A DNA stretch of 64,000 nucleotides from Pseudidiomarina aestuarii. Lineage in GTDB: Bacteria > Pseudomonadota > Gammaproteobacteria > Enterobacterales > Alteromonadaceae. The notes beneath the pieces were generated by a model. The model was not told the origin of the DNA. It saw only the letters and a program-made list of their open reading frames with translations, and made no database searches. The stretch is from the NCBI RefSeq assembly GCF_003987355.1, contig NZ_PIPR01000001.1, positions 1,674,001 to 1,738,000 of the forward strand, read 5' to 3'. A program made the position numbers and the translations under genes. Below, piece after piece: positions 33,062 to 56,061 of the stretch (within the stretch, counting starts at the first letter, position 1; the number at the start of each line of letters is the position of its first letter).

Positions 33062-33091
33062 GGTGAGTTCCGATATGTCACATTAATAGGG

Positions 33092-34375: not shown

Positions 34376-34487
34376 TTAGTTATAAATTGTCAGCTTTTTG
34401 TCCGTTATTTCATGTGAGTTCGTCAGGACGACTACAGCACTCATGAATATCCTCTCATGCGTTACTTACTAAACTGGAGAGTATTTT

Positions 34488-35963
34488 ATGATTCGTCTTA
34501 TTTTTATTGGCTTGCTGTATTGCATATTGAGCATACTGCATACAGCCGCAGCTGACACGAAAAAGCCTCAAGAAAAATTATCAGTAGCGCAAGTGAAGGC
34601 AGATTTTGAGCAGTTATACCTGGGTCTTCAAGCTGGCAGCTATGACCTTTACGTAAATCATCCAAAACGCGCTTACGATCAAGATTATCAGCGGATGTTG
34701 GATTCTATTCAGGAGCCGATGACTTCACTCGAGGTACAGAAGCTATTTATGCGCTTTACCGCGTTGGCTGACATCGCTCACACTCGGATCGATTTTCCCG
34801 TTGATGATTATCGCGGTTTCATGACCAATGACGGGAAAACGCTGCCGCTGACGCTAACTATCACCGATACTTCTGTAGTTATTGATGATTACCTCGGTCA
34901 GCATGAAAACATTCAATCTGGTGACCACCTGATAGCGGTAGATGGTACCAACGTTCGCCAGTGGCTCGCGCAACTCGGAGCGTACATTGCCGCGGATGAT
35001 CAGTTCATTTTAAATAGCTTACTCGGTGGGCAAGTGGGTGCGTATACCTGGTTACATGATGGCGAGCGAGACTCCTATTTACTGCGCGCTCGGTCTGCGC
35101 AAAGTGGAGAGGTTTACGAGGTACGTCAACCCACATTGGCCTATTCCCAGCAACAACCGGTCTCGAATGCAGAGGCCGATGCTGCTTCACTACCACGCGA
35201 CTATGACATCATTGATTCAGCAATTGGCTATTTGAAGCCAGGACCGTTCTACAATGTTTTCGCAGAGTCCGATAAGGAAATATGGGATACCGAAGAGTAC
35301 GTTAGATTTATCGATGAGGCCTACCAGCACTTTTTAGCCGAAGGTGTCGATACGATCTTAATCGATGTTCGCAATAACCCAGGTGGCACGAATAGTTTTA
35401 GTGACCCTATGATTGCTTGGTTTGCAGATCGTCCATTCAAATTCGCATCTGATTTCCGAGTCAAGGTGTCAGAACTAGCCAAACGCGCAAATCAAGCACG
35501 ACTGGAGAATGAGAACACTGATAATACGATTAGCCATAAACTCGCAAAGTTTTATGCGGCCCATGAACCCGGCGAGATTATCTCGTTTCCGCTGGAAGAA
35601 GCTCAGCCCAATCCATCCAACCGAAGCATATTAGGGCATGACATAGACGTTTATATCGCTATTGATCGCTCCTCATATAGCAATGCGGTCTCGGTCGCTG
35701 CCATCGCACAAGATTATGGCTTCGCCACTGTGATTGGAGAAACGACGGCCGATTTCGCAACCACTTATGCGTCTATGGAGTCTTTTCGATTAGACCATAG
35801 CGGTATCAGCGTTGGCTTTCCTAAAGCGCATATTATTCGTCCAAATGGCGACTTAAAAGCTGGTGGCGTTGTACCGGACATCGAACTCGAGCTTAACCAA
35901 GACCACGACGGCGACTTAGCTAAAATTGTGGCTGCGATAAAGGCTTATAACCAACCCTTTTGA
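34488..35963 (+). CDS. Secreted S41-family peptidase
   Basis: A 491-residue precursor with a signal peptide ending HTAAA (about residue 21). A PDZ-like segment (ENIQSGDHLIAVDGTNV) sits near residues 140-160, and the S41 core near 270-470 has the conserved LIDVRNNPGGT strand and the nucleophile segment DRSSYSNAVSVA (Ser near 395-398). The usual Glu after the nucleophile is Asn here. The GGVVPDIE segment at the end is typical. It should cleave peptides in the envelope. It is divergent from the ToxR/CadC-like regulator and overlaps the end of the convergent response regulator by 19 bp. Confidence 0.87.
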   Translation: MIRLIFIGLLYCILSILHTAAADTKKPQEKLSVAQVKADFEQLYLGLQAGSYDLYVNHPKRAYDQDYQRMLDSIQEPMTSLEVQKLFMRFTALADIAHTRIDFPVDDYRGFMTNDGKTLPLTLTITDTSVVIDDYLGQHENIQSGDHLIAVDGTNVRQWLAQLGAYIAADDQFILNSLLGGQVGAYTWLHDGERDSYLLRARSAQSGEVYEVRQPTLAYSQQQPVSNAEADAASLPRDYDIIDSAIGYLKPGPFYNVFAESDKEIWDTEEYVRFIDEAYQHFLAEGVDTILIDVRNNPGGTNSFSDPMIAWFADRPFKFASDFRVKVSELAKRANQARLENENTDNTISHKLAKFYAAHEPGEIISFPLEEAQPNPSNRSILGHDIDVYIAIDRSSYSNAVSVAAIAQDYGFATVIGETTADFATTYASMESFRLDHSGISVGFPKAHIIRPNGDLKAGGVVPDIELELNQDHDGDLAKIVAAIKAYNQPF

Positions 35964-36541
35964 TGGGCAATCCGTGCAGCTTCGGTGCGGTTGCTGGCAT
36001 GCAATTTACTGATAGCCTCAGACAGATAATTACGCGCAGTACCCTCGGCGATAAATAACGCTTTGGCAATCGCCTGGGTACTGAGTCCTTGACCCGCCAA
36101 GCGCAGTGCTTTGCGTTCTTTATCGGTTAGCGGATCCTGCTGGCCAAGCGCTTGGATTAACAATTCATTGCTGATCACCTGCTCACCGGCACACACTTGT
36201 TGCAATGAACTGATAAGTACATCGATCGGGGAGTCTTTCAGAAGAAACCCACGTACCCCAGCATCTAAAGCGCGCTTGATATAACCTGCTCGGTTGAAGG
36301 TGGTTATAATCACGGAACGCACGTTAGGTTGGTGCTCGTGCACCCATTGCACCAGTTCGAGGCCTGTTATGTTGGGCATTTCGATATCGCTCAGCAATAC
36401 ATCGTAAGAATCGTTTTGGAGTTTACGTTGTGCATCTGCACCATCGACCGCTTCATCAACCTGATAATCCGCTTCTAATCGCAATAAGCTCGCCAGTGCT
36501 GTGCGAACCATGGTCTGATCTTCGGCAAGCAATATCTTCAT
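35945..36541 (-). CDS. NarL/DesR-type response regulator
   Basis: A 198-residue regulator with a receiver domain (E7/D8, phospho-acceptor D52 in LLSDIEMPN, T80, K102 in FLLKDSP) and a LuxR-type helix-turn-helix (about 137-198: LTDKERKALRLAGQGLSTQ, then the recognition helix in GTARNYLSEA). The size and order match DesR/LiaR-like regulators that control ABC exporters. It overlaps the kinase stop by 4 bp (ATGA). The likely target is the divergent ABC-2 operon at 37786. Confidence 0.93.
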   Translation of the reverse strand: MKILLAEDQTMVRTALASLLRLEADYQVDEAVDGADAQRKLQNDSYDVLLSDIEMPNITGLELVQWVHEHQPNVRSVIITTFNRAGYIKRALDAGVRGFLLKDSPIDVLISSLQQVCAGEQVISNELLIQALGQQDPLTDKERKALRLAGQGLSTQAIAKALFIAEGTARNYLSEAISKLHASNRTEAARIAHQKGWL

Positions 36542-37617
36542 GCGTTTGATTCCATCTGTTTCGGGATCATCAGGGCAACTTCATACCCTGTTTGCGTCGT
36601 AATCGAAACCTCACCACCGAGCTCCTGCATACGCAGTTTAACGCCGGTTAATCCGTTGCCATCCTGGATAGGATTGGCGTTGCCGTCGTCAGCAATAGAC
36701 ACTCGGTAGGTGTCTGCGGATTCATCGAACTGAATCACACAGCGTTCGCCGTGGCTATGTCGTATAACATTAGTCACCAATTCGGTTATGGCGAGTACTA
36801 GAGCCGTTTCACGCTGCGAATCCATGAGCGGTGGCGTGCCTGAAATAGTCGTGCTAAATCCCGCGTCCTGAAGCCGTTGTTCTAAGCGTCTCAGCTCCAG
36901 TTGCAAGCCACCATGTTTATATCCAGAGACACTCTGCCGTACTTGAGACAAACTGCTGCGCGCGATGTTACTAAGTTCAGCCAACTGCTTTTCAGCGTCA
37001 GCGTATTGCTGTTTGCCTAACTGCGCCTTGGCTAAATCCGATTTCAGAATAATGCTGGACAGTGTATGACCAAGGATATCGTGCAAATCGCGTGCAATTC
37101 GTTCGCGTTCGACACTTCTAGCAAGACGTTCGATTTCTACTGCACTCTTTTCTCTTTCCCGAGCGTGACGCTGCCGCAGTCGTTCAACACGGCCAAATAT
37201 AGCTACGGTGATGACTATCACCGCGCCATAATGAAAAAAAAAATCCCAACTCGTTCCAGGGACAAATTGGAACCATGCCAAAGTTGCTACAACGCCAGCA
37301 ACACAGGCTAAGGCAATTGGCCATCGATACGCAAAACCGACAAAGAAACCGACATAACTGAATAATGCCACCGACCCTGGATTCAGCGGTGTCATTGCAC
37401 AACCAATAGCAAACATACCAAGTATCGGTAATGCCATGCGGTCCGTCGGCAGTGAGAAGCAATAAAAGTAGATCCCAATAAACACCAACATTGCCGCCAA
37501 CATGACGACAACTTCGGTTATTGAGTAGGGAAAGAGCACAATGGGAAGGATATAGAACCCTAAGTTAAAAAGGTAGATCCATGCGTGCTTTTGATCGTTA
37601 GAGGGCGATTCTGACAT
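36538..37617 (-). CDS. DesK/LiaS-type sensor histidine kinase
   Basis: A 359-residue kinase of the HisKA_3 group. Residues about 14-143 hold four to six membrane segments with almost no loops, followed by a coiled-coil linker (about 143-172). The phospho-acceptor is H179 in RERIARDLHDILGHT. The ATPase part has the N-box ITELVTNVIRHSHGE and G-box DGNGLTGVKLRM. DesK, which has such an N-terminal part, senses membrane state. It is co-translated with the regulator gene downstream and divergent from the ABC operon. Confidence 0.92.
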   Translation of the reverse strand: MSESPSNDQKHAWIYLFNLGFYILPIVLFPYSITEVVVMLAAMLVFIGIYFYCFSLPTDRMALPILGMFAIGCAMTPLNPGSVALFSYVGFFVGFAYRWPIALACVAGVVATLAWFQFVPGTSWDFFFHYGAVIVITVAIFGRVERLRQRHAREREKSAVEIERLARSVERERIARDLHDILGHTLSSIILKSDLAKAQLGKQQYADAEKQLAELSNIARSSLSQVRQSVSGYKHGGLQLELRRLEQRLQDAGFSTTISGTPPLMDSQRETALVLAITELVTNVIRHSHGERCVIQFDESADTYRVSIADDGNANPIQDGNGLTGVKLRMQELGGEVSITTQTGYEVALMIPKQMESNA

Positions 37618-37674
37618 ATCGCTATCTCATCCCATACTGGCCTAATCATGACGCCATTATGAGCACAACAAGCC

Positions 37675-37718
37675 AGACAAACCAGTGACAAATGTAACTC
37701 GATATTCATGACAAACGC
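37675..37718 (+). promoter_or_regulatory. Repeated GACAAA motifs before the ABC-2 operon
   Basis: AGACAAACC (37675-37683), TGACAAATG (37687-37695) and TGACAAACG (37710-37718) lie between the divergent kinase and ABC genes, with a TAGACT box at 37745-37750 that could be a weak -10. Such direct repeats upstream of a poor promoter suit an activator like the DesR-type protein encoded here, but this is position-based inference. Confidence 0.35.
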
Positions 37719-37785
37719 TACTGCAGCTATTGCAACGTGACGCCTAGACTGAAGCCCATACATCAACACTGCAAGGATACCAATT

Positions 37786-38526
37786 ATGAGTCAACTCAGT
37801 TTAAAAGTTCAAGGACTCAGCAAAAGTTACGATTCAAACCAAGCGCTGCATTGCCTGAATTTGGATGCATATGCTGGTGAAGTGCTGGCGGTGCTCGGCA
37901 AAAATGGCGCAGGTAAGACGACTTTCATTCATAGCGTGCTCGGCTTGCAGAGCTATAAAGCAGATGTTGTCGAGATACTCGGCGAACGAATGTCCGGGCA
38001 ATCACGTTCGCTCGATATTCGACAGCGCGTAGGAGTCATGATGCAAGTTGGAGCACTGAACGCCAACTTAACCGTCTATGAACAGTTGGATTTGTTCTGC
38101 AGCTACTACCCTCATGGCGAACAGGTTGCGGACTTGCTCGAACAATTTGGCCTGACAAAAATCGCCAAACAACGATTCGGTAAACTCTCAGGTGGGCAAC
38201 GCCAACAGGTGCTGTTCGCTATCGCCGTTGCGGGTAAGCCAGAGTTACTATTTCTCGATGAGCCCACAGTAGGGATGGATGTTGAGGCCCGCCATGCGCT
38301 CTGGGAGCAAATTCAGCAACGTCGCCAACTTGGCTGCGCCATTGTCTTCACGACTCACTACATTGAAGAAGCCGAACGACTTGCTGATCGAGTCGCTATT
38401 TTGCGTGAGGGTGAGATTGTTGCCTACGGAACGTTGGCGGAGGTCATCGCCGGACACCCATCGCTTGAGGCGGCATACTTACACCACATTAAACAGGTCC
38501 CATCTCAGGAGCCAGCCCATGCGTAA
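37786..38526 (+). CDS. ABC transporter ATP-binding protein
   Basis: A 246-residue ATPase with Walker A LGKNGAGKTTF, Q-loop region VGVMMQVGALN, signature LSGGQRQQV, Walker B LLFLDEPTVGMD and switch His in FTTHYIEEA. The MMQVG Q-loop and FTTHY switch are common in DrrA/CcmA-like drug or lipid exporters. Its end overlaps the permease start by 8 bp. Together with the divergent DesK/DesR-like pair it resembles the DesKR-regulated or bacteriocin/lipid stress export modules. Confidence 0.92.
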   Translation: MSQLSLKVQGLSKSYDSNQALHCLNLDAYAGEVLAVLGKNGAGKTTFIHSVLGLQSYKADVVEILGERMSGQSRSLDIRQRVGVMMQVGALNANLTVYEQLDLFCSYYPHGEQVADLLEQFGLTKIAKQRFGKLSGGQRQQVLFAIAVAGKPELLFLDEPTVGMDVEARHALWEQIQQRRQLGCAIVFTTHYIEEAERLADRVAILREGEIVAYGTLAEVIAGHPSLEAAYLHHIKQVPSQEPAHA

Positions 38527-39259
38527 CGCAACTGCTATATACCTCAAAGAAAGTCATTATGATTTGGTCAGTTTATGGCGTACGCCAGGCTTTTTCCTGC
38601 CGGCGATATTGTTTCCAGTCGTGTTCTATATTTTTTTCGGTATTGTTTTTAATTTCAGCGCGGCCCAAGGCGAATACATGCTGGTTTCCTATGCTTGCTT
38701 TGGCATGATGGGTCCAGCCTTCTTTAACTATGCCACTGCCGTTGCCAGTGACCGCGCCCATGGTTGGTTGACACTCAAACGGGTTTCACCCATGCCATTA
38801 GGCGCATACGTTGCCTCAAAATTTTATAGCAGCCAAGTGTTTGCATTGTGTATTGCACTGCTATTGTTCGTTACCGGTGCTCTATTTGCAGATGTCGAAA
38901 TGCACCTATGGCAATGGGGAACGTTGTCAGTCATTCTTTTGCTCGGCACTTTACCGTTCGCGCTCATTGGCTTGCTGATGGGGCTGTGTTTGTCCGACAA
39001 AGCAGCACCGGCGATGGTGAATCTAATCTATTTACCCATGGCGTTTCTATCTGGTTTGTGGGTACCCATTCAGTTTTTGCCCGACACGGTGCGCTATATT
39101 GCCTTTGCATTACCCTCTTACCACTACTCACAACTTGCGCATGCGGTTATAGGTACTAGCCAAGGGCAAAGCCTTTGGCTTCATATTGCCTATCTGGTGC
39201 TATTCTGTGTCGCCATGTTTGGTGTGATTTACTGGCGCTATCAAAAGCTTTCTCGATAG
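38519..39259 (+). CDS. ABC-2 type transporter permease
   Basis: A 246-residue permease with six membrane segments (about residues 22-44, 55-77, 103-125, 138-160, 166-186 and 222-242) and a short hydrophilic N-terminus, as in DrrB/YadH-type ABC-2 permeases. The ATG at 38519, inside the last codons of the ATPase gene, is the proper start; a longer open frame to 38279 merely overlaps the ATPase gene. It forms the exporter with the preceding ATPase. Confidence 0.9.
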   Translation: MRNATAIYLKESHYDLVSLWRTPGFFLPAILFPVVFYIFFGIVFNFSAAQGEYMLVSYACFGMMGPAFFNYATAVASDRAHGWLTLKRVSPMPLGAYVASKFYSSQVFALCIALLLFVTGALFADVEMHLWQWGTLSVILLLGTLPFALIGLLMGLCLSDKAAPAMVNLIYLPMAFLSGLWVPIQFLPDTVRYIAFALPSYHYSQLAHAVIGTSQGQSLWLHIAYLVLFCVAMFGVIYWRYQKLSR

Positions 39260-39269
39260 GATGAACACA

Positions 39270-40538
39270 ATGAAAACGAAACTCATCATTCTTGCTGTCA
39301 TCACGTTGATTGTCGCCACGTTACTGCTGCTACCGACGCCCCAACAACCTAATGCGAGCAACGACAATAGCTTTGTATTGGGTCCAGTACGAATTTTTGA
39401 TGGCGAACGAGTTATTGAAGCAAACTATATTGAAATCAACGAAGGCATCATTGTCGCGCTACACAGCAACAAGCCCGACCTTTCGCTGCGTTGGGTTGAT
39501 GGCGCCAATCAATGGGTTATACCGGGCCTGATCGACTCACATGTGCATGCTTGGGGTGATGCCCTGGAGCAATCGGTCGAACGGGGCGTGACCACCGTTA
39601 TTGATATGTTTGGTGACCCAAACTTCTTGGCGCAAAGCCAGGCTCAGCGAGCAACAACCGAATTTACCACAGCTGCGGATATGTATGGTGCGGGTTTACT
39701 GATGACCGCGCCCGATGGTCACGGCACTCAATACGGCATTGATGTATCGACCCTAGATTCGCCTGAGCAAGCTGCTCAGCTGGTTCAACAACGTATTGAT
39801 GCGGGCTCGGACTTCATCAAAATTGTCTACACGGCTGAGGGTGCTGGTTACCAACATGCGCCTTCTATTTCTAAAGCTGGTTTGGAAGCTGCAATTGCTG
39901 CTGCTCACCAGCAGAAACGATTAGCCGTGGTTCACATTGCCGATTATAACTCCGCGGTTGATGCGGTGGCGGCAGGTGCAGACGGACTGGTGCATAGTTT
40001 CTTTAACCAACCGATAACCGACGAACTACTAACGATGATGCAGGCAAACGATGTCTTTGTGATTCCAACCACTGTGGTTTATGAGGGCATGTTGCGTGGT
40101 GAGATTAATGACGAAGTTCTTTTTAACGAATCCCAACTGGATATTAGCCGAGCGGCTCAATCAACACTCAACCAATCGTTCCCAGATACCAATCGATTTC
40201 CTGAGCACTACTATGAGAATTTAATGGAGACGACGCAACGCATGCATGACGCTGGCGTCCGAGTTCTAGCTGGCAGCGACGCACCTAATCCGAACACGGC
40301 ACATGGTTGGTCACTGGTAGTCGAGATGCTGCTTTTACAGCAAGCAGGTATGTCCGCTGAAGCAGTGCTTACTGCAGCGACAGCTGGTCCTGCGGATGCA
40401 TTCAAATTGACCGACCGCGGCCGCATTCAGGTAGGAAACAAAGCTGATTTGCTGGTGCTCACCGAGTCACCACTCGACAGCCTAGAATCGTTGCTCACAC
40501 CCGCAATGATTTGGAAGAATGGCTACCGCATTCGTTAA
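39270..40538 (+). CDS. Membrane-anchored amidohydrolase
   Basis: A 422-residue protein with an N-terminal hydrophobic segment (about 4-22), then a TIM-barrel metal hydrolase. Ligand motifs: DSHVHAWGD (HxH), the bridging Lys in FIKIVYTAEG, His in AVVHIADY and LVHSFF, and the catalytic Asp in LAGSDAPNPN. It resembles imidazolonepropionase/prolidase-like amidohydrolases. I prefer the ATG at 39270, which has AGGA 8 bases upstream, over the ATG at 39261. It follows the permease with 10 bp between, so it is probably part of the exporter operon and may act on the cargo or a related periplasmic amide. Confidence 0.85.
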   Translation: MKTKLIILAVITLIVATLLLLPTPQQPNASNDNSFVLGPVRIFDGERVIEANYIEINEGIIVALHSNKPDLSLRWVDGANQWVIPGLIDSHVHAWGDALEQSVERGVTTVIDMFGDPNFLAQSQAQRATTEFTTAADMYGAGLLMTAPDGHGTQYGIDVSTLDSPEQAAQLVQQRIDAGSDFIKIVYTAEGAGYQHAPSISKAGLEAAIAAAHQQKRLAVVHIADYNSAVDAVAAGADGLVHSFFNQPITDELLTMMQANDVFVIPTTVVYEGMLRGEINDEVLFNESQLDISRAAQSTLNQSFPDTNRFPEHYYENLMETTQRMHDAGVRVLAGSDAPNPNTAHGWSLVVEMLLLQQAGMSAEAVLTAATAGPADAFKLTDRGRIQVGNKADLLVLTESPLDSLESLLTPAMIWKNGYRIR

Positions 40539-41530
40539 CTCAAATGTACCTTTTTTAGCTCGCTGGGGCGCTGACATCCGGTGCCCCAGCAGGCGATCTG
40601 CAACTCAAACTTCAATTGCTCAATGGTGTTGATGCATTCAGTAGTCGAAACTCGTGCCGAATTTAGTATGAGCCCGGCGATACCGGTAAGATTGGCGCCT
40701 AGAGCCAAAGCTTTAGCGATATCCAAACCGTGACGAATACCACCCGAGGCAATGATAGGTAGATTGATAGATTGATAGTCGCGATGCCGCAACAGCTCAG
40801 CGGTCGTATGGCCCCACTCCCTAAATACTTGAGCCGCATGCTGACGGCGTGGGTCCTGTGCCAAGGCCCCTTCGATATCAATGAAGCTGGTGCCACCGCT
40901 GCCAGCAATATCGATGGCCGCGGCACCAGCTTGCTGGCACAGCTTTGCGACGCTTGGTGTGATTCCCATACCGACTTCTTTCACAATGACTGGTATGTCA
41001 CACTTGGCAATGCAGGCGGCTAAACAATCCAAGCTTCCCGACCAATCTGTATCACCATGGTCTTGAAAGATTTCCTGCATCGGATTCAGGTGAATGATCA
41101 TGGCATCTGCTTGAATGCTCTCAGCAAGCTGATTGAGGCAGTTTGGTTGGCGCCATTTGATGAGATTGGCCAAGCCGACGTTACCAAATAATGGTGCTGA
41201 ACCAATCCACTTTCTCAACTCTCGCTGCAACCCTTCATCGCTGACACCCTCGAGACTGATTCGCTGCGATCCAACGCCCATCGCAATGCCACACTCACGA
41301 CTAGCTTCAGCGAGGTTACGGTTGATCGCGATGGATTCACGAGTACCTCCAGTCATTGAGCTGATCATAATAGGGGCCGCCAGCTGAAAGCCTAAAAACG
41401 AGGTGCTGAGGTCAATATCGGTGAAGTTTATTGTTGGTAATGCGCAGTGTTGCAACTGTATCGAGTCAAAGGTCGACTGACTGCTCTGCTGTGCTGCGGC
41501 TAAATCAATGTGTGACTTTTTTCTATCCAT
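40535..41530 (-). CDS. fni: Type 2 isopentenyl-diphosphate delta-isomerase (FMN-dependent)
   Basis: A 331-residue TIM-barrel flavoenzyme that converts isopentenyl to dimethylallyl diphosphate and so supplies the allylic primer for carotenoid and retinal synthesis. The N-terminus MDRKKSHIDLA, the MISSMTGGT and GVGSQRIS segments, GSGGTSFIDIEG and the FMN-phosphate segment ASGGIRHGLDIAKALALGA are typical of Fni. I choose ATG at 41530 with GAGG at 7 bases; a GTG at 41542, which overlaps the blh stop, is the other option. It is the last gene of the photosystem cluster and overlaps the convergent amidohydrolase by 4 bp. Confidence 0.92.
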   Translation of the reverse strand: MDRKKSHIDLAAAQQSSQSTFDSIQLQHCALPTINFTDIDLSTSFLGFQLAAPIMISSMTGGTRESIAINRNLAEASRECGIAMGVGSQRISLEGVSDEGLQRELRKWIGSAPLFGNVGLANLIKWRQPNCLNQLAESIQADAMIIHLNPMQEIFQDHGDTDWSGSLDCLAACIAKCDIPVIVKEVGMGITPSVAKLCQQAGAAAIDIAGSGGTSFIDIEGALAQDPRRQHAAQVFREWGHTTAELLRHRDYQSINLPIIASGGIRHGLDIAKALALGANLTGIAGLILNSARVSTTECINTIEQLKFELQIACWGTGCQRPSELKKVHLS

Positions 41531-41538
41531 ACTGCGCC

Positions 41539-42324
41539 TCACTTGGCTGAGCCATAATCACGCTCCAGCAATATCATGTGTGGCATCGTCAACGCCGCTA
41601 AACCAATAAAAACCAGAGCAAGAGCCGATTGGCTCCAGTCAAATGTGAGCTGAGTTCCTATTAAGATCGCCGCAACAACAGGCGCAACGGTTAAGCCAAG
41701 GAGCACCCAAATAGCATACTTTCGATGCTCAGCCTCAAGCCTTCGCCATTGATTGCGGAGGTGTGTTGGGCTGTGTGAAAACGCGAAAAACAATGCGAAG
41801 TAGATCAGTGGATGAAAAATGAATGCGCCACTACTAAATATCAGTAGCCACGCTATCCATTTCATATTTGCTCTTAGGTTTCGACCGACAGAGTAAAGTC
41901 TTTGGAACAAGCCCAGCAGCGCTAATCCACTCAACAGCAACACCAACCCGTTTGCTCCAGCCTCGGTTAAGAATAATTGCTGAAACACCCATTCCACGTC
42001 TTGTGGATGAAACAACATCGGCAAACCAAGAATAATAGTTCCGGTACCGGTTGCTTGCAGTGCGTTGCGTGGGAAATAGTCACGACCAAAATGCAGTGCT
42101 GAGACCAACAGAAACAGCGCTAAACCAACAACGGGTGACAGCCACCACAACGCTATAGTCAGTCCGCCCACGGCAAGATACTGACTCACCCACCAACCCA
42201 ATTGCTTGGGTGTTTGCCAAAGTCCATGCCGCCGTGCAATGAAAATATCAAACGCACCATGCGGTAAACCAGCAATCACAGCGGCGACTAAAGCGATGAC
42301 AACGAATGGTGATAACTCAACCAT
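41539..42324 (-). CDS. blh: Brp/Blh-family beta-carotene 15,15'-dioxygenase
   Basis: A 261-residue polytopic membrane enzyme that cleaves beta-carotene symmetrically into two retinal molecules. Iron-ligand histidines expected in the family are visible: GLPHGAFDIF near residue 22, SALHFGRDYF near residue 77, and the FSHSPTH segment near residue 185. Six or more hydrophobic segments follow. Its start overlaps the crtY stop by 8 bp (ATGGTTGA). It provides the chromophore of the rhodopsin at 46701. The call is strongly supported by position between crtY and fni. Confidence 0.92.
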   Translation of the reverse strand: MVELSPFVVIALVAAVIAGLPHGAFDIFIARRHGLWQTPKQLGWWVSQYLAVGGLTIALWWLSPVVGLALFLLVSALHFGRDYFPRNALQATGTGTIILGLPMLFHPQDVEWVFQQLFLTEAGANGLVLLLSGLALLGLFQRLYSVGRNLRANMKWIAWLLIFSSGAFIFHPLIYFALFFAFSHSPTHLRNQWRRLEAEHRKYAIWVLLGLTVAPVVAAILIGTQLTFDWSQSALALVFIGLAALTMPHMILLERDYGSAK

Positions 42325-43381
42325 ACAACGTCCTCATAAAGGTCCGTTTCGGCACTGCCATCATGACCTTGAACAAGTCGACCGCTGAGGGCTCCGACAT
42401 AAACGACGCAAATTCATCACCGGTCAGTTTCTCCGCCATCGCCATGAAAATGGTTGGGAGTTGGTCGGGATCTCGCTCAATCACGCTGAGCATCCGCTCA
42501 TCAAACCAACGCAACCCAGCAGAAAAAGAAGAAAATTGTGGTGCTCGATCCATAAATATATTGAGCGCGGTTTGACGTGCCCAACGCTTCGTCTCTAAAT
42601 ATCCATACCCCGTTGCACTGCGAATTTGTTGCGACGCCAGCCGATCATTGGGGCGCACCTTGAGTCCCATCGGGATAGTGGCAGATTCTTGCCGCAATGG
42701 CGGTTCAGAAACGCCAAGTTCACTAAGGCGATCACTTAGTATTTGGGATAGCTCGTCATGGGTTGCTGGCGATACCGCAAACTGAGTCACTTCAACTAAC
42801 GCACGTCGCTTGTCCAAAGGGAGGATATAGTCAAAGGTAAAGCGATTATCGAGCAGTCGCATGTTGGTCATCAGTTGCGCTTGGCTCGGGTTAATATCCT
42901 CGCCCAATTCAACTTCAGCACCAACAAAGCGTTGTTGAATCCAGATGTCCGATGTTGCACAGGGCCGCGTATCTACGACAACATCACCATGGAGGTCCAT
43001 CGCATCAGCATCAGCACCCAGCACTAATTCAACGGCTGGATGGCTTGTGATTTGTTCGAGTAATTCAGCGAAAACGTCGGCTCCGGCGAGGCGGTAATAG
43101 CGATATGCATTTCCCTGTTGCTGAACTTGAATAGGCGTGTTGTGGCGCCCGAATGTCCAAGATACATACTCAGTGTAGGGCAAACCAACCGCTGGCTGCT
43201 TCGCGAAGAAACTGAAGGTTTGTTCATTTGCATACTGTTCGCGGCGCTCAATGATTACTATTCGACCTGGCAGACGTTTGCCTCTCGCCGAATAAACATT
43301 CATAAGCTCAACACACAATGATAACCCGGCTAATCCACCACCGATGATAGTTAGCCATGTTGACGGTACCGAGCTAGCCAT
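42317..43381 (-). CDS. crtY: Lycopene beta-cyclase
   Basis: A 354-residue flavoprotein cyclase that closes both ends of lycopene to give beta-carotene. The N-terminal dinucleotide site is TIIGGGLAGLSLCVEL, and the CrtY segments NEQTFSFF, FDYILPLDKRRALVEVTQF and IPMGLKV-like are in order. It overlaps crtB by 8 bp (ATGGCTAG) and blh by 8 bp. It is somewhat shorter than typical CrtY enzymes but ends normally. Confidence 0.92.
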   Translation of the reverse strand: MASSVPSTWLTIIGGGLAGLSLCVELMNVYSARGKRLPGRIVIIERREQYANEQTFSFFAKQPAVGLPYTEYVSWTFGRHNTPIQVQQQGNAYRYYRLAGADVFAELLEQITSHPAVELVLGADADAMDLHGDVVVDTRPCATSDIWIQQRFVGAEVELGEDINPSQAQLMTNMRLLDNRFTFDYILPLDKRRALVEVTQFAVSPATHDELSQILSDRLSELGVSEPPLRQESATIPMGLKVRPNDRLASQQIRSATGYGYLETKRWARQTALNIFMDRAPQFSSFSAGLRWFDERMLSVIERDPDQLPTIFMAMAEKLTGDEFASFMSEPSAVDLFKVMMAVPKRTFMRTLYG

Positions 43382-44264
43382 CGAGTATAGTCCTCAACGT
43401 CTGTTCTGGTTTACCAACACTGGGACTGTCACGATAGTTCCACAAGCTGGGACTGGTCATAAATTTTGCAATTGAAACCACAGCAAGCTTCATTTTTTGA
43501 GGCTTTGATAACACCATACGAGATTGCCAATTCTGAGCTTGTTCTTTGCGAATGGCGCGACCAATACCTCCATAAATATAGCTGGCTGCCAAAATTGCCA
43601 AGCGCGATCTTAGTGGCAAGAGCGCAATACCGTGCCGCGCGGTTTGGTAACGCTCTTCAGACAGCGCAATGAGACGCAGAATTGCGCCGCGAATTTGTGG
43701 TCCCGCAGCAGCTGAAGGTTGCAGAATGTCCTCAAGGCTAATGTCGCCGAGCCATACTTTCGGCACATAGATACGCCCGCGTTCGGCGTCTTCATAAACA
43801 TCGCGCGCGATATTAGTCATTTGCATGGCTACTCCCATGTCAATAGCATGGCTAATCGCTCGCGGATCATCGCAGCGAAGCGCTTGACACATCATTTCGC
43901 CAACCGTCCCCGCTACACAATAGCAATAGTCTTCCAGCTCCGACTGATCATGAACCGCCACTTCACCAATGTCATAAGCCATGCCGCGCAAAAAGGCATG
44001 CATAGTTGCAGTATCTATCTCCAAATAGCTTTGTCGATTATCTAGTGGAGTATCAAGTCCCGCTAAAATTGCTCGCAAGTTTCCCGCCGCAGTCTCACTA
44101 TCTGCAGCCTCGTCTATTTGATCATCAATATCACGTAGATAGGCATACAATGCTGTGGCGCGCTTGAAATCCTCTTTGCCCAAAAACCAACCCGCCAAAT
44201 AGAAGCTTTTACCATTGGCTTTCAGGGTGGAACTTTGGTCAGCGGGCTCAATTGCGATGCGCAT
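43374..44264 (-). CDS. crtB: Phytoene synthase
   Basis: A 296-residue trans-isoprenyl diphosphate synthase that joins two GGPP to phytoene. Two Asp-rich sites are seen: LRDIDDQIDE near residues 45-55, and IARDVYEDAERGRIYVP near residues 150-167. The GTVGEMMCQ segment fits too. Its ATG shares an A with the crtI stop (TAATG), and its end overlaps crtY by 8 bp. Confidence 0.95.
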   Translation of the reverse strand: MRIAIEPADQSSTLKANGKSFYLAGWFLGKEDFKRATALYAYLRDIDDQIDEAADSETAAGNLRAILAGLDTPLDNRQSYLEIDTATMHAFLRGMAYDIGEVAVHDQSELEDYCYCVAGTVGEMMCQALRCDDPRAISHAIDMGVAMQMTNIARDVYEDAERGRIYVPKVWLGDISLEDILQPSAAAGPQIRGAILRLIALSEERYQTARHGIALLPLRSRLAILAASYIYGGIGRAIRKEQAQNWQSRMVLSKPQKMKLAVVSIAKFMTSPSLWNYRDSPSVGKPEQTLRTILDG

Positions 44265-45745
44265 TAGACCTCCGTGGCAGCCTCGGGAAGCAACCGGTCA
44301 ACGACTTTCGCCGAACTCAACACGCCAGGCATACCAGCGCCGGGATGCGTTCCCGCACCCGCTAGCAATAAATTACTGAAGTACTCCGAGCGATTGTGGA
44401 AACGGAACCAGGCGGATTGCGTGAACTTAGGGGCAATAGAGAAGCCTGCGCCATCAACACTGAGGTAATCAGTCTGAAAATCCTCAGGGGTCATCGCAAA
44501 GATAGTTTCAATGTTGTCTTCTAAATCAGGCAGTAAGGTTTCACTCAATGCACGAATAATTTTCGCTCTGAGTTTTGGCTCTTCAACTTGCCAGTCAATG
44601 TTGCCTCGCAAATTTGGTACCGGTGCCAGCACATAAAAGCTGTCGCAGCCCTCTGGAGCGAATGATGTATCGGTAGCAGTTGGGCGATGCAAATAAAGAG
44701 AAAAGTCCTGCGGCAAATCACGCTCAGCAAATATTTCCTTTAACAACTCTTGGTAGCGCTTCCCGAGCCAGATGGTGTGGTGCTCAACGTCTGAATATTG
44801 CTTCTTGGTACCAAAAAATAGCACATAAAGACCCATCGACCGCTTACTATGCTCGACTTTCAATTTTACTTGCGTACTGCCATAGCTTTCGGGCAATAAA
44901 TGCTTATACAAGAACAAGGGATCGCCGTTGAAAATAAAGTAATCTGCAGCGATATTGTCGGCATTTGCTGTGATCACACTGTCGAGTTGGCGCCCAGACT
45001 GTTTGAAACCAATCACTTCTGCCTCTGTGATCACCTCAATACCCTCTTCGACCATGAGTTTGGTGAGTGCCACAACGATGGCTCCAGTACCACCCATCGC
45101 GAAGTGAATACCAAATTCACGCTCAAGATAGTGAATCAAACCGTAGATACTGGTGGTATCAAATGGATTACCACCTACTAATAAGGGTTGAATGGAGAAC
45201 GCTTGGCGCAATTTGTCATTCCGCAAATAACGACTGACCATTTGCCAAACGGTTCGATCCGAACGCAATCGAGCGAGATGTGGAATTTGCTTGAGCATGG
45301 TCCAAAAAGAATGAAAAGGCTGGTCGGCTAGGTCTTCAAAACCTACTTTATATATTTTGCGGCTGTGTTCGATCAGTTTTAAGTAGTTCTCTTGATCGCT
45401 CGGTTCAAATTTAGCAATTTCCGCAAGCGTATCCTCGACGGTACCACCATAGTTAAAACGCGTTCCGTCTTCACTAAAATAGAATTGATACCAAGGATTC
45501 AGCGGTACGAATTCCACGTAGTCCGAACGTTTTTTACCAAACAATTCGAACAACTCGTCAAATAGAAAGGGCGCTGTAATAACTGTCGGCCCTGCATCAA
45601 AGGTATACCCATCGCTTTTGAAGACGCGGGCGCGGCCACCTAGCTGGTCATTTTTTTCTAATAGAGTGACTGTATGCCCTTTTGCTCTGGCTCTTAAAGC
45701 AGCAGCAATACCGCCAAACCCGCCTCCAATGACGACAGTACGCAT
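44264..45745 (-). CDS. crtI: Phytoene desaturase (lycopene-forming)
   Basis: A 493-residue flavoenzyme that introduces the double bonds that turn phytoene into lycopene. The FAD site at the N-terminus reads VIGGGFGGIAAALRA with LLEKNDQLGGRA, and the C-terminal signature is LLLAGAGTHPGAGMPG. Its ATG shares one base with the crtE stop, and its stop shares one base with the crtB start. Full length for the family. Confidence 0.95.
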   Translation of the reverse strand: MRTVVIGGGFGGIAAALRARAKGHTVTLLEKNDQLGGRARVFKSDGYTFDAGPTVITAPFLFDELFELFGKKRSDYVEFVPLNPWYQFYFSEDGTRFNYGGTVEDTLAEIAKFEPSDQENYLKLIEHSRKIYKVGFEDLADQPFHSFWTMLKQIPHLARLRSDRTVWQMVSRYLRNDKLRQAFSIQPLLVGGNPFDTTSIYGLIHYLEREFGIHFAMGGTGAIVVALTKLMVEEGIEVITEAEVIGFKQSGRQLDSVITANADNIAADYFIFNGDPLFLYKHLLPESYGSTQVKLKVEHSKRSMGLYVLFFGTKKQYSDVEHHTIWLGKRYQELLKEIFAERDLPQDFSLYLHRPTATDTSFAPEGCDSFYVLAPVPNLRGNIDWQVEEPKLRAKIIRALSETLLPDLEDNIETIFAMTPEDFQTDYLSVDGAGFSIAPKFTQSAWFRFHNRSEYFSNLLLAGAGTHPGAGMPGVLSSAKVVDRLLPEAATEV

Positions 45746-46629
45746 TAAGTTACGGCCTCTAATTTAGGTCGCTTTGCCATAACCGCATCGCGAATGAACT
45801 TAAAGCTCATTTGCACGGACTCGGGCAAACGCTGGACCATGGAATCCGCATTATTCAAATGGTCTGATACGGCGAAATGCAAAGCTTGCGATGTGTCATC
45901 ACTGTTGTTCTCAGCCAGAACCCAGTAGCCGTTGAGCCGACGGTTCCGATCAAAGTGGCGATCATTTAAATCATCGAGTAGTTGATACGCGACACCGAAT
46001 TCAGCAAATGCTTTTCTCACCTGCTGAATCTGATTCGCTTTGTAATTACTCAAAATCATGGCGGCCAGAACAGGTAACCCGAACAACGCTCCAGACTTAT
46101 TCTTCACTGATAAGCAGTAATCTTGATAAGTGCGATTCGCCAATTCAGTCGTATCACAATCCTCTATCTGACCTTCAGCGGCCGCTTGAATGGAATCTTT
46201 AAATAATTGCGCAATGGCACGATGGTGCTCTGTGGAGTCAACTGGAATGCACTGCGCTTGGAACATGGCCTCAACAATGAGAGCATCACCCAAACACACA
46301 GCAGTCTCACTGCCATATTCTCGCCATACCGTTGGCTTCCCATTTCGAGAGGGATCAGAATCCATTAAATCATCGTGTACCAAGGAAGCTTGATGCACGA
46401 GTTCGCAAGCAGTTGCAATTTGTACGGCTTGCACTTCGGATAAACAGAGAGACAAACTAATATGTAGAGCAAGTTTCATTCGCAGGCGTTTGCCGCGTGC
46501 CGACAGCTGATGCCTCCACGCCGAAGACAACGATGCCCTGTCAGCGCTAATGCAGCCTTGTAGTATCTTCTCGCACGACTCAACCAAACGATTTACTGTT
46601 GTTTCTACAACCGGTGCTAGGCTCGTCAT
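45745..46629 (-). CDS. crtE: Geranylgeranyl diphosphate synthase
   Basis: A 294-residue trans-prenyl transferase. First Asp-rich motif DDLMD (in LVHDDLMDSD) and second DDLND (in YQLLDDLNDRH) are present, with GKRLRMKLAL at the start of the fold. It extends FPP with IPP to GGPP for phytoene synthesis. I choose ATG at 46629, which has a strong GGAGG four bases before it; an upstream start at 46683 would read through the hairpin at 46661-46686. It is the first biosynthesis gene after the rhodopsin gene. Confidence 0.92.
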   Translation of the reverse strand: MTSLAPVVETTVNRLVESCEKILQGCISADRASLSSAWRHQLSARGKRLRMKLALHISLSLCLSEVQAVQIATACELVHQASLVHDDLMDSDPSRNGKPTVWREYGSETAVCLGDALIVEAMFQAQCIPVDSTEHHRAIAQLFKDSIQAAAEGQIEDCDTTELANRTYQDYCLSVKNKSGALFGLPVLAAMILSNYKANQIQQVRKAFAEFGVAYQLLDDLNDRHFDRNRRLNGYWVLAENNSDDTSQALHFAVSDHLNNADSMVQRLPESVQMSFKFIRDAVMAKRPKLEAVT

Positions 46630-46660
46630 AAAGCCTCCGTTAGTCGACCTGATTGCGTTG

Positions 46661-46686
46661 AGGGTGAGCACCGAAATGCTCACCCT
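46661..46686 (-). other. Strong hairpin between rhodopsin and crtE
   Basis: AGGGTGAGCA and TGCTCACCCT make a perfect 10-bp stem with a 6-base loop, 15 bp after the rhodopsin stop and 31 bp before the crtE start. There is no T run, so it is not a classic terminator. It may stop part of the transcripts, protect the 3' end of the rhodopsin mRNA, or mark a processing point, letting the opsin be made in excess over the enzymes. Confidence 0.75.
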
Positions 46687-46700
46687 ACCAGCGCTTCTTT

Positions 46701-47474
46701 TTAGTTATCTTTTAGGCTGCTTTCATTGGTAGCGGCGTACCAAATCATCAGACCAAAGGCGATTTTGTTAACCACGTCAGCTAAGTTATAGACGATGTTC
46801 AACGTATCTTGGTCTGCAGTTCCGGTCATATAACCGAGGACATAACCGAGTGGGTAGATTGCCCAACCAATGGTTACGATCCAACGCATTGCTGAATAAG
46901 CATATTTTACAGCTGGGCTTGCCTTGGTTGCTGCAGCTTTACCTGCTTCACCAAAGAAGATTTCATACAGAATGTAGAACCAACCCAACATACCGATAAT
47001 AAAGCCCAAGGTTATGTTGATATAACCTGCTTCACCTAAGTAGCCAGGAATCAGCATCACTAACGTACCAATCAGTAAGCGCCAGAAGATGCCTGCACTT
47101 GCAGCACCGATAGCACGTAGAATTAGGTAAAACTCAATCATCAGTAACGGGACGGTCAATAGCCAATCGATATAACGATAGACCGTTGGCGTTTCGCCTG
47201 TAGCAACCCATACATCTCGCATGTAGAAGTAATGGAATGCTGCGATAAAAGTTACCAAAGCAGATACGGTTAATGATGTTTTCCACTTACCTGAAACACA
47301 TTGCGTTTCCCATAAGAAGAATACGGTCGCAGCTGCTAACGCCATTGAAATCAACCAAAAGCTGATACCAACAAAGTCATCAGGCTGCAGGTTTGCAGCG
47401 TGTGCGGTTCCCGGCAGTAACATCAGTAGCGCCGGAGCGACAGCAACTTGCCATTTCTTAAGTATTGCGCTCAT
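46701..47474 (-). CDS. Green-absorbing proteorhodopsin (light-driven proton pump)
   Basis: A 257-residue seven-helix retinal protein with a cleavable signal peptide (to about AHA, residue 26). Numbering runs 6 higher than in the reference green proteorhodopsin. The Schiff-base Lys is K237 (DVVNKIAFG), the proton acceptor is D103 with His81 (AAFHYFYMRD), and T107 and E114 complete the DTE proton-pump triad in RYIDWLLTVPLLMIE. The tuning site holds L111, the residue of green-light forms; blue forms have Gln there. It therefore should pump protons outward on illumination. The start is ATG at 47474 after GAGGTG; a TTG at 47486 is unlikely. It heads the carotenoid cluster that makes its retinal. 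Confidence 0.96.
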   Translation of the reverse strand: MSAILKKWQVAVAPALLMLLPGTAHAANLQPDDFVGISFWLISMALAAATVFFLWETQCVSGKWKTSLTVSALVTFIAAFHYFYMRDVWVATGETPTVYRYIDWLLTVPLLMIEFYLILRAIGAASAGIFWRLLIGTLVMLIPGYLGEAGYINITLGFIIGMLGWFYILYEIFFGEAGKAAATKASPAVKYAYSAMRWIVTIGWAIYPLGYVLGYMTGTADQDTLNIVYNLADVVNKIAFGLMIWYAATNESSLKDN

Positions 47475-47550
47475 AAAGCACCTCAACTAAATAAAAGAAA
47501 AAGCACCCCGGCATTTACTACTCATCAGCCAATAGGGTGGGTAGGAATGG

Positions 47551-47586
47551 TTGTAACTGCAAATTGAACAAAATTTGCACTTACAA
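47551..47586 (-). promoter_or_regulatory. 15-bp inverted repeat in the rhodopsin upstream region
   Basis: TTGTAACTGCAAATT (47551-47565) and AATTTGCACTTACAA (47572-47586) pair in 14 of 15 positions with a 6-base spacer. It lies 77-112 bp before the rhodopsin ATG. If transcription begins near 47604, just after the TATACT candidate -10 (47615-47610), the repeat would be in the leader RNA; otherwise it is an operator for a regulator such as a light- or redox-responsive protein. Confidence 0.6.
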
Positions 47587-47590
47587 CACA

Positions 47591-47615
47591 TTTACTTAGT
47601 AAAGTTCGCAGTATA
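47591..47615 (-). promoter_or_regulatory. Candidate rhodopsin promoter with overlapping palindrome
   Basis: On the minus strand TATACT at 47615-47610 is a good -10, but no strong -35 stands 16-18 bp before it. A near-palindrome TTTACTTAGTAAA (47591-47603) covers the predicted start of transcription. Both a weak -35 and a start-site palindrome would fit a regulated promoter. Evidence is sequence pattern only. Confidence 0.35.
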
Positions 47616-47682
47616 AGGATCATGAATATTCGACATATTGCATGAAATATAAATTAGACAGGTGAATAAGGGCGCGGCAAAT

Positions 47683-50600
47683 TTATTCCCGAATGCGGTA
47701 CCACAAGGCATACAGCGCGGGCACAAACAATAAAGTGATCACAGTACCCACGCCAACCCCACCAATAAGAACATAGGCAAGTGGTCCCCAAAAGCTATCT
47801 TGAGTGAGCGGCACAAATGCGAGCATGGCAGCAAGCGCAGTGAGAATAACTGGGCGCGCACGTTGCACCGCGGCTTCAACGACAGCACCCGATGTTTCCA
47901 TCCCGTCTTTGAGGTTATCAGACACTTGCTGCGTCAAAATCAGGGTATTGCGCATGAGTATTCCCGCGAGGCCAGTCAAACCAAGCAATGCCACAAAGCC
48001 AAAGGGTTGGTTGAATACAAGTAGCGCAAGCACTGCCCCAATCAATCCCAACGGTGCTGTAGCAAAGACCATGAAGGTGCCACTGAACGAGCGCATTTGC
48101 AGCATGATGAAGATGAGCATCAGCGCTACCATCACCGGCTGTAACTTCTGCAACGAACCTTCCCCACGACTCGACTGTTCAACCGAGCCACCAATTTCTA
48201 TCCGATATTCCACCGGCAGATTTTCTCGAATTTCTGCCATTTCATCCCACAATTCGGCGGTGACGGTGTTGGGTTGTGCGCCACGAATATCGGCGATAAC
48301 GTTCAGATAGTTGTCGCGATTGTACCGTCGTATGACAGGCTCCTCGTAAGCGATTTGGAGCGTGGCTAGCTGCGCCAGCGACACTTTCTCGCCACGATTA
48401 TTCAGCACCTCCAAGCTTTTAAAACGTTGGGGAGTAAGTGCTTGCCCAGCCTCACGGCCACGAACCGTAATACTGACCGAACGAATATCCTCGTACATAG
48501 CACTAATTGGAGCGCCCTCGAGAAGCAGTTGCAGCTGATCAGCCAGCAGAGTCGGCGTCAGTCCCTGCAATTGCAGCGCACTATGGTCAATATCGAGCTG
48601 ATAAATGGGTGTTTTTTCATCCCATTCTAAGTGCGAATTATGCGTGTTGGGATGTACAGCCATCAGGTCACGCACTTGATGCCCAATGTCACGCAACTGG
48701 TCCATATCGGGTCCCAAAATACGGAAGGTGATCGGCCAATTTACCGGTGGTCCATAGAGTAATCGGTAAACACGCACTCGCGCTTCAGGATATTGGCCCG
48801 CAGCCACTTCTTGCTCTAACGCAGCCATTAACGCGTCACGGCTGACCTGATCCTCCATAACGGCAACCACTTTGGCGAAGGCAGGGTCTTGGGGCTCGGG
48901 CGCTAAACTAATAAAGAATCGTGGCGGTCCGCCGCCGACATAACTCGCAAGCGACTTCACTTGCTCTTGTTGATTAATAAAGGATTCTAAGCGCCTGACG
49001 ACAGCATCTGTTTCTGCAATGGCAGTTCCCTGCGGCATGTACACACTCACCAACACTTCCGTGCGATCAGAGCTCGGGAAGAACTGCTTCTGTACCAGAG
49101 TGGCCATGCCCACACCGCTTAGCACGAGCAAACCAACCGTCCCGAGAACAACTTTCTTCCGGTGCACCACACACCATTGCACAGTCCTGCGCAAACGCTG
49201 ATACAGGCGCGAGTTGTAAGCACCCTCACCGTCATCGTGCCCACCCCTGCTCGGCTTCGAATTCCCGATCAGGCGCACACCCAAATAAGGCACAAATATG
49301 ACCGCTACCAACCAAGATACGATGAGTGCGATTCCCGTTACCCAGAATATATTACCCGCATATTCGCCGACGCCAGATTGAGCAAAGCCAATCGGGAAAA
49401 AGCCTGCTATGGTTACCAAAGTACCGAACAACATGGGCGCAGCGGTGACAGTCCACGCGTGTGCTGCCGCTTTAGTACTTTCCCAACCTTCGTGAATTTT
49501 AACTAGCATCATCTCCACCGAGATAATGGCATCATCCACCAACAAACCGAGCGATAGGATCAGCGCACCTAGCGTTATACGGTCAAGATTAATGCCCATT
49601 AACAGCATAACGAGGAAAGTAATACCAAGGGTCAGGGGTACGGCTAGACCTACAATCAAACCAGCACGAAAACCGATGGCAATAATACTCACCAGCATGA
49701 CGACCGCGACCGCCATCAGGAACTTAATCTGGAACAGTCCAACAGCTTTATTAATGGCATCGCTTTGATTGGTGAGCACCTCAAGCTGCACACCGGCTGG
49801 TATCTGTTGTGTTTCCGCAGCAATAAATTCAGCTAAATTGGCGCCTAATTCTTGCCCATTAAAGCCCGCTTGCATGACCACTCCGAGCAATAAGGCATCA
49901 TCACCGCGTGAGCGCACAAAATAGCTAGGTGGGTCTTCGTAACCACGCCGAATGGTAGCGACATCGCCCAATGGAACAACACCATTAGCGGTCGGGATCG
50001 GAACCTGCGCAAGTTCCTCAGGATTCTCGAGCACGCTATCAACGCGGATATACAAACGGGGGCCGCGGGTCTCAATTCTACCTGCTGGGGTCACCTCGTT
50101 TTGTTGTTGAATGGCAGCAAATATGTCTTGCGGATTGACGCCCAGATTCACCAGTCCAGCAGGATCGAACTCGACATAAACACGCTCTGCTCGCTCAGCC
50201 AACACCAATGCTTTATGTACCCCTGGTACTCGCTGCAGACGATCACGGATTCGCTCTGTTTCGCGCGTGAGTTCTCGCATGGGTAGCGCTGATTCAGTTG
50301 GCCCTCCGGTCACCGCAATCAGGCTAAAATAGACATCATTAAAATCATCTAACACAATCGGACCAATTACTCCGGCAGGTAAGGTCCGTTGTTCATCAAT
50401 CATCCGTTTACGAACTTCATAAAACAGTTCATCCACCATCTCTGCTGGCGAATATTCCTGAAATTCGATGATGATCGACGCAAACCCCGGCCGAATCGTG
50501 GTATCTAACCGGTACACGTACTCGACTTCCTGAATACTTTTTTCGAGCTTATCGACCACTTGGTCCTGCAATTGCTGCGTGGTAGCACCCGGCCAAATCG

Positions 50601-55317: not shown

Positions 55318-55974
55318 TCAAGCTGCGCCAAATAGGTGGCCGGTTTTGACGTAGATGATGGTCTCTTGTTCAACGCGGGGATGATGCTCACTGGCATGGG
55401 GACTGCGCAACCATGAGCCTGCTGGATAACGCCCGTGCTCGTCGATGAATTCACCGGATAACACAAAGATTTCCTCGCCACCAAAATGGCGATGTGGTTT
55501 GAAAACTTCACCGGCTGGCCATTTTACTAGAGCCACGTGCTCGCCCTCAAAGCTATGCAACGGCATCACTTGAAGACCACCATAACCTGGCAACCACTCG
55601 GCCTCATTGGTATTGATGCGGACAGTCGCTGTATCGGCTGGATCGAATTGATGTAATTTAACGAACAAAACGCAGCCATTTTCACTAAAGGGCGCATGTT
55701 TAGAGTCAGGTGGATTGCGAATATAGGTACCAGCGGGATAGTTGCCATTTTCATCAGAAAATACGCCATCTAGGACGAAAATCTCTTCGCCAGCAGGATG
55801 TTGATGCGTTTTAAAATGCGAGTTCTGCGCATAACGCACCAAACTAGTGGCGCGACCGCGCTCGGCTTCCTCCCGCTCTAACAATTTTCTGTCGACTCCA
55901 GCAGACGGACTTGGAACCCAGTCTTCGTCGTTGGTGCGGACCACCACCCGTTTCGAGAAATCCATATTCAGCAT
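55318..55974 (-). CDS. Double cupin protein (ChrR-like)
   Basis: A 218-residue protein with two cupin domains in tandem, about residues 5-105 and 108-215. The metal motifs are HQHPAGEEIFVLDG and PHRHFGGEEIFVLSG, nearly the same in both, so the gene is a fused duplication. The domain resembles the C-terminal cupin of the anti-sigma factor ChrR, but the sigma-binding zinc domain is missing. It could bind a metal-linked ligand or act as an enzyme. I choose ATG at 55974, which has GAGG at 7 bases; the longer frame to 56025 is not supported. Confidence 0.85.
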   Translation of the reverse strand: MLNMDFSKRVVVRTNDEDWVPSPSAGVDRKLLEREEAERGRATSLVRYAQNSHFKTHQHPAGEEIFVLDGVFSDENGNYPAGTYIRNPPDSKHAPFSENGCVLFVKLHQFDPADTATVRINTNEAEWLPGYGGLQVMPLHSFEGEHVALVKWPAGEVFKPHRHFGGEEIFVLSGEFIDEHGRYPAGSWLRSPHASEHHPRVEQETIIYVKTGHLFGAA

Positions 55975-56061
55975 TAACGTACCTCTATGACCATTGAAGA
56001 CTGACTTGTCACAATTGTACGTCACTACTTAAATTATCGACCAGAATTGGAACTGGTCGCG

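Follow-up and report, generated by a model that had tools for sequence, protein, structure and literature searches.

The window, the 64,000-nucleotide stretch of Pseudidiomarina aestuarii DNA that was analysed, is free of N and belongs to contig C1 of a genome (G000) of 2.64 Mb that is 99.5% complete. On its minus strand, from position 47474 down to 40535, we identified seven genes in the order opsin-crtE-crtI-crtB-crtY-blh-fni, with every frame open. This confirmed the order, single direction and coordinates of the original prediction, whose span of 40535–47683 also takes in 208 bp upstream of the opsin, and family profiles agreed with the gene identities that it had proposed.

The opsin gene (46701–47474) encodes 257 residues with a probable signal peptide (judged by eye) and matched the Bac_rhodopsin family (PF01036, 164 bits); together with its solved relatives and key residues this identifies a green-type proteorhodopsin. 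The following genes are crtE (45745–46629; GGPP synthase; polyprenyl_synt, PF00348, 131 bits), crtI (44264–45745; phytoene desaturase; Amino_oxidase, 90 bits), crtB (43374–44264; phytoene synthase; SQS_PSY, PF00494, 172 bits, the sole match to this family in the genome), crtY (42317–43381; lycopene beta-cyclase; Lycopene_cycl, PF05834, 65 bits), blh (41539–42324; beta-carotene 15,15'-dioxygenase; BCD, 126 bits) and fni (40535–41542; type 2 isopentenyl-diphosphate isomerase). All these Pfam matches lie above their cut-offs. NCBIfam cut-offs were exceeded by CrtI (TIGR02734, 542 bits, cut-off 238), Blh (TIGR03753, 157 bits, cut-off 95) and the type 2 isomerase (TIGR02151, 340 bits, cut-off 281). 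CrtE, CrtB and CrtY had NCBIfam matches only below the curated cut-offs (the GGPP synthase models for CrtE and the CrtY equivalog model for CrtY), so their names rest on Pfam and gene position. The opsin had no NCBIfam match and is named from Pfam, position and solved relatives. With these scores for CrtE, CrtB and CrtY borne in mind, all five enzymes crtEIBY-blh are present, intact and clustered.

The TTG start of the opsin in the open reading frame listing (47486) is probably too early; the residue numbering H81, D103, L111 and K237 fits the ATG at 47474. For crtE, which the same listing extends to 46683, the start is probably the ATG at 46629 that follows a GGAGG. Comparison with the protein of another carrier, G015, suggests that fni probably begins at the ATG at 41530 and not at the GTG at 41542. 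With the listed starts, crtI and every later gene down to fni share 1 to 8 bases with the gene just upstream, which suggests one operon; fni from the later ATG would instead begin 8 bases past blh. A short gap separates the opsin from crtE, and a purine-rich site lies ahead of each of their ATG codons. The stop codons of fni and of a convergent amidohydrolase gene overlap by 4 bases (40535–40538).

Alignment of the opsin with GPR identified H81, R100, D103, T107, L111, E114, D233 and K237, in agreement with the DTE motif, the H81/D103 pair, the K237 residue and the leucine at the tuning site that had been predicted. All of these residues except L111 are common to the 62 aligned locus opsins; this alignment and the corresponding tree cover 62 of 83 opsin loci, leaving aside 20 low-identity rows (mostly SAR11) and the N-split L089. 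The match to PF01036, the retinal-binding lysine K237, the aspartate acceptor D103, T107 and the glutamate donor E114 are the features of a proteorhodopsin of the bacteriorhodopsin family. Among solved rhodopsins, 9r22, described as a “microbial rhodopsin”, scored best with 289 bits, followed by several proteorhodopsins at 266–273 bits. A single-sequence AlphaFold model was poor (mean pLDDT 55) and was not used; the seven-helix fold is implied by homology. Leucine at GPR position 105 is established as green-tuning in this family, and L111 occupies that position. The tuning leucine is read as green likewise in the excerpts of PMC3380642, which also describe the Vibrio campbellii proteorhodopsin as a green-absorbing proton pump.

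Based on this homology, we infer that the only opsin of the genome functions as a light-driven proton pump. Microbial rhodopsins of comparable size include some sensors, yet a sensory role is very improbable here given the full DTE pump motif, the location of the gene in a retinal operon and the presence of proteorhodopsin pumps among its closest solved relatives; nor did we find a transducer gene among the neighbours identified. As a pump, the opsin would bind retinal at K237, with H81 and D103 forming the acceptor complex and E114 serving as the donor, and green light would drive protons outward. Retinal would be supplied by the rest of the cluster. Fni is expected to balance IPP and DMAPP, CrtE to form GGPP, CrtB, CrtI and CrtY to convert this to beta-carotene, and Blh to cleave beta-carotene to retinal. 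The original prediction held the cluster to be sufficient for retinal from FPP; the gene set stands, but FPP alone would not do for CrtE. This enzyme uses IPP as well as FPP, and the IPP supply would be aided by Fni (IDI-2).

Pairwise comparison of two other carriers, G015 and G001, by the NG86 method gave dN/dS values of about 0.07 for the opsin, 0.06 for crtE, 0.03 for crtI, 0.10 for crtB, about 0.08 for crtY, 0.12 for blh and 0.03 for fni, where N runs restricted the opsin, blh and fni values to 136, 120 and 157 codons. These low ratios indicate that all seven genes appear to be kept in these two genomes. Between the window and G015, the opsin showed a dN of 0.07 and a dS of 1.7, and the remaining six genes were saturated. 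From the gene content, intact frames, key residues and distribution that we observed, we are highly confident that the locus is a complete and probably functional proteorhodopsin photosystem cassette, with enzyme activities, pumping and colour predicted from sequence.

The original prediction had proposed checking whether a glycine at the retinal fenestration would allow a carotenoid antenna. We found Phe158 at this position, and a xanthorhodopsin-type antenna was rejected on this ground. The fenestration glycine is Gly156 in xanthorhodopsin and Gly153 in Kin4B8 (PMC13093654, as far as its accessible text goes). The equivalence of Phe158 was established by an ungapped count, ten residues before the isoleucine of the shared helix E ILY, like the glycine of xanthorhodopsin and Kin4B8; MAFFT places a 5-column gap directly after Phe158, so that its column shows threonine in xanthorhodopsin and alanine in Kin4B8. 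Phenylalanine is also found here in GPR, BPR and 62 of 62 aligned locus opsins, and the solved chain 4jq6 has tryptophan. A tryptophan at the fenestration has been argued to exclude an antenna (excerpts of PMC6794327), and we treated a bulky residue alike. With Phe158 closing the window, no carotenoid antenna is expected and the opsin would work with retinal alone. The predicted absence of crtZ and crtW also extended to the whole genome, where no CrtZ- or CrtW-like gene was found. The lone PF04116 and PF00487 matches resemble lipid-modifying enzymes, with OlsE and DesA as their nearest models and scores below the cut-offs of these. Thus, within the CrtZ and CrtW superfamilies (CrtO and CrtG lie outside the families examined), we found no gene with which the host would make a carotenoid bearing hydroxyl or keto groups.

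Upstream of the opsin we identified two conserved elements on the minus strand. The first is a 22-bp element (47503–47524) about 50 nt upstream of the ATG. A search of 26 genomes at up to three mismatches recovered it in three of them (two exact, one with a single mismatch), always at the opsin, and its best matches upstream of 22 other opsins, a few of which have the start codon placed too far downstream, had 9–13 mismatches. This likeness could in part be explained by shared descent alone. The second element (47595–47622) has the pattern TGATCY-N10-AACTTTACTA, which occurred at 13 of 240 loci, every one around the opsins of G000, G001 and G015. The 208 bp ahead of the opsin gave no sigma-70-like promoter, and sites of this kind in the region were no more numerous than chance would give (7 versus 9.9 expected).

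The ECF11 (RpoE-ChrR) promoter is given as TGATCC-N16-CGTA in the available part of PMC5507510. The second block makes a poor ECF11 promoter, with TGATCC present but ACTA in place of CGTA, and singlet-oxygen control of the opsin by this route was unsupported. The pattern TGATCC-N18-TAAG has one match in the window, for which a looser pattern expects 0.73; across the 26 genomes it gave 61 matches versus 20 for a reversed control, and in the window's own genome 2 versus 2. A full ChrR (L234, above cut-off), at another place in the genome, adjoins a sigma-factor-like frame (by eye) that is preceded by a one-mismatch site ending in CGTA. Within the window, positions 55318–56025 encode a two-domain ChrR-type cupin (Cupin_7) that scored below the ChrR cut-off and has an orthologue close to the site of the cluster in both G015 and G013. 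The one Rfam match, to PK-repZ on the opposite strand and below threshold (47566–47694; 26.7 bits versus a threshold of 44, E 0.013) was taken as chance.

Among 26 congeneric genomes, the opsin is present in three (G000, G001 and G015), and phytoene synthase occurs in the same three; in all 59 genomes the opsin was found in five, the additional two being G027 and G031, which belong to the family. Two of the carriers are incomplete (G001 77%, G015 86%), and a completeness of 99% is listed for 21 of the 23 non-carriers. Within Pseudidiomarina the cassette is an accessory trait, carried by a minority of the species. An apparent split of the opsin in G001 corresponds to a 2-base N run, and a broken gene was rejected on this ground. 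The two genes that flank the 7.2-kb cluster in G015 and G001, one for an RluB-like pseudouridine synthase (by eye) and the other a tetR gene, are separated by 7241 and 7239 bp, respectively, and by 425 bp in G013, a genome that groups with these two in the genus tree (100/100). By tblastn, no match to a cluster gene above 35% identity was found within the 35 kb examined at the G013 site, and the rest of this genome likewise lacks an opsin and a phytoene synthase. A natural comparison for the worth of the trait is offered by G015 and G001, which carry the cluster, and G013, which lacks it between the same flanks.

In the window the cluster is located between the amidohydrolase gene and an RND efflux operon. 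Orthologues of the cupin, an amidase and a dUTPase lie near both the window and the G015 copies, and a 2-OG oxygenase orthologue is found close both to the cluster in the window and to the site in G013. The cluster sites of G000 and G015 differ in their immediate flanks and share wider neighbours. In G012 (L127) the RND operon adjoins an orthologue of 31952–33061, and a segment of about 14.6 kb that contains the cluster in the window is missing; a precise empty site for the location in G000 was not found. In the window this segment (33061–47683) comprises an S41 peptidase, a two-component pair, an ABC transporter, the amidohydrolase and the proteorhodopsin cluster. The amidohydrolase orthologue in G010 (L099) seems to be broken by stop codons, and frames at L131:4588–10953 (G014), beside an ABC/amidohydrolase cassette, resemble what we take to be a type I CRISPR-Cas operon. 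A mobile element was considered and rejected: the window has no tRNA and only short imperfect repeats surround the cluster. The GC content is 0.480 in the cluster versus 0.485 and 0.497 in its flanks. A phage search gave no match, and a plasmid search gave eight records, all below 60% identity.

These distributions can be read in two ways, between which we see an even balance: the common ancestor of the G013/G015/G001 group and G000 already had the cluster, which relatives then lost, or it was gained separately. The Pseudidiomarina crt genes form one clade, both in a crtI tree of rows covering more than 60% of the query and in the four-gene tree, the shared wider neighbours point to a common location, and the empty site in G013 also fits an ancestral presence. 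Identity between the window and G015 ranges from 46% (Blh) to 88% (opsin) in the cluster, 68–75% in nearby genes and 77% in a conserved 1060-residue enzyme, by which the cluster looks no younger than the genome; this divergence speaks more for an old presence than for a recent exchange, without amounting to proof. Against a single ancestral cluster stand the different immediate flanks of the G000 and G015 copies and the weak placement of G000 in the genus tree (24 of 26 genomes, without G023 and G025), where the minimum of two changes does not tell gain from loss. An rpoB tree of 17 genomes, without G001 and G015, pairs G000 with G013 at only 87.

As for the ancestry of the genes themselves, we lean slightly towards a mosaic, in which an opsin of the Alteromonas/Glaciecola/Vibrio type was joined to a Litorivicinaceae-type retinal block and the two were kept or lost as a unit in the genus. 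The opsin grouped with those of Alteromonadaceae and Vibrio at 95/98 (starred) and, in a second tree, at 84/96 (not starred), and its union with the Litoricola type was rejected (p-AU 0.0147). Conversely, concatenated CrtE, CrtB, CrtY and Blh grouped with the Litoricola type at 99 (starred), and their union with Alteromonas/Vibrio was rejected (p-AU 1.7e-5). CrtI leans the same way (94/92), yet the AU test did not reject the other grouping (p 0.129). The fni gene is shared by L013, L014, L046, L048 and the Pseudidiomarina loci and had no match in eight Alteromonas/Vibrio loci; it also occurs in ten further loci, mostly alphaproteobacterial, so its presence is weak evidence and not diagnostic. 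All seven genes had matches in 16 of 83 loci, two of which are the other Pseudidiomarina carriers. Several points weigh against a mosaic: the clades of both candidate partners adjoin in the opsin tree, the first opsin tree has long branches, the four-gene tree was a quick one, and the AU-test groups were named only after the first trees. The AU-test trees were built from chosen subsets of 34 crtI, 33 opsin and 31 concatenated rows, without the long rows L072, L023 and others.

Taken as a whole, phototrophy in this one small-genome genus may be a single removable cassette with a recognisable neighbourhood, controlled through an upstream element of its own that these genomes have at no other place, and with an opsin and retinal block of different gammaproteobacterial ancestry, a composite picture that we put forward tentatively and rate somewhat below even. 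The mechanism of a light-driven pump with retinal synthesis is already well known and the gene set is ordinary; less ordinary is its restriction to three of the 26 genomes searched in the genus, where it appears to form a removable cassette whose ancestry is mixed. Our searches for Idiomarina, Pseudidiomarina and Idiomarinaceae rhodopsins, in a literature with subscription journals largely outside, found no opsin report for Pseudidiomarina, and none appeared in the accessible portions of PMC11165706, PMC5706468, PMC5867873 and PMC4766312. The available text of PMC9426571 lists Idiomarina genomes after a surface-gene rule that includes proteorhodopsin and does not state the gene for each genome, which makes it ambiguous. 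Within the literature so covered, the cluster extends proteorhodopsin phototrophy to this genus.

The closest published parallels are Vibrio campbellii BAA-1116 and Vibrio sp. AND4 (excerpts of PMC3380642 and PMC2860489), which likewise combine a green proteorhodopsin and the genes crtE, I, B, Y and blh in a single locus, as an accessory trait. In AND4 the opsin and retinal genes were argued to have been transferred as a linked set (PMC2860489, in part), a view that a mosaic origin would refine only modestly. The published Vibrio clusters, as far as these texts describe them, are flanked by transposases, whereas no transposase turned up among the identified neighbours of the cluster in the window, part of which was scanned for families. 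The loci of V. chagasii and Vibrio sp. HI00D65, strains other than those of the papers, encode opsins 79–84% identical to that of the window, whereas their crtE and crtB are only 33–34% and 37–38% identical and fni has no match. The Litorivicinaceae-type clusters (L013, L014, L046 and L048) have the same order opsin-crtE-I-B-Y-blh-fni and, of the clusters beyond the genus, come closest to that of the window in the four-gene crt tree; their opsins form a neighbouring clade (69–79% identical), and L046 and L048 have glutamine at the tuning site. Within the genus, Pseudidiomarina sp. DAH.19 (contig L021, to which part of G015 is identical) has the same seven genes, an opsin 87% identical and the same upstream element, and its cluster lies between the RluB-like and tetR genes, in contrast to the amidohydrolase and RND efflux operon that border the cluster in the window.
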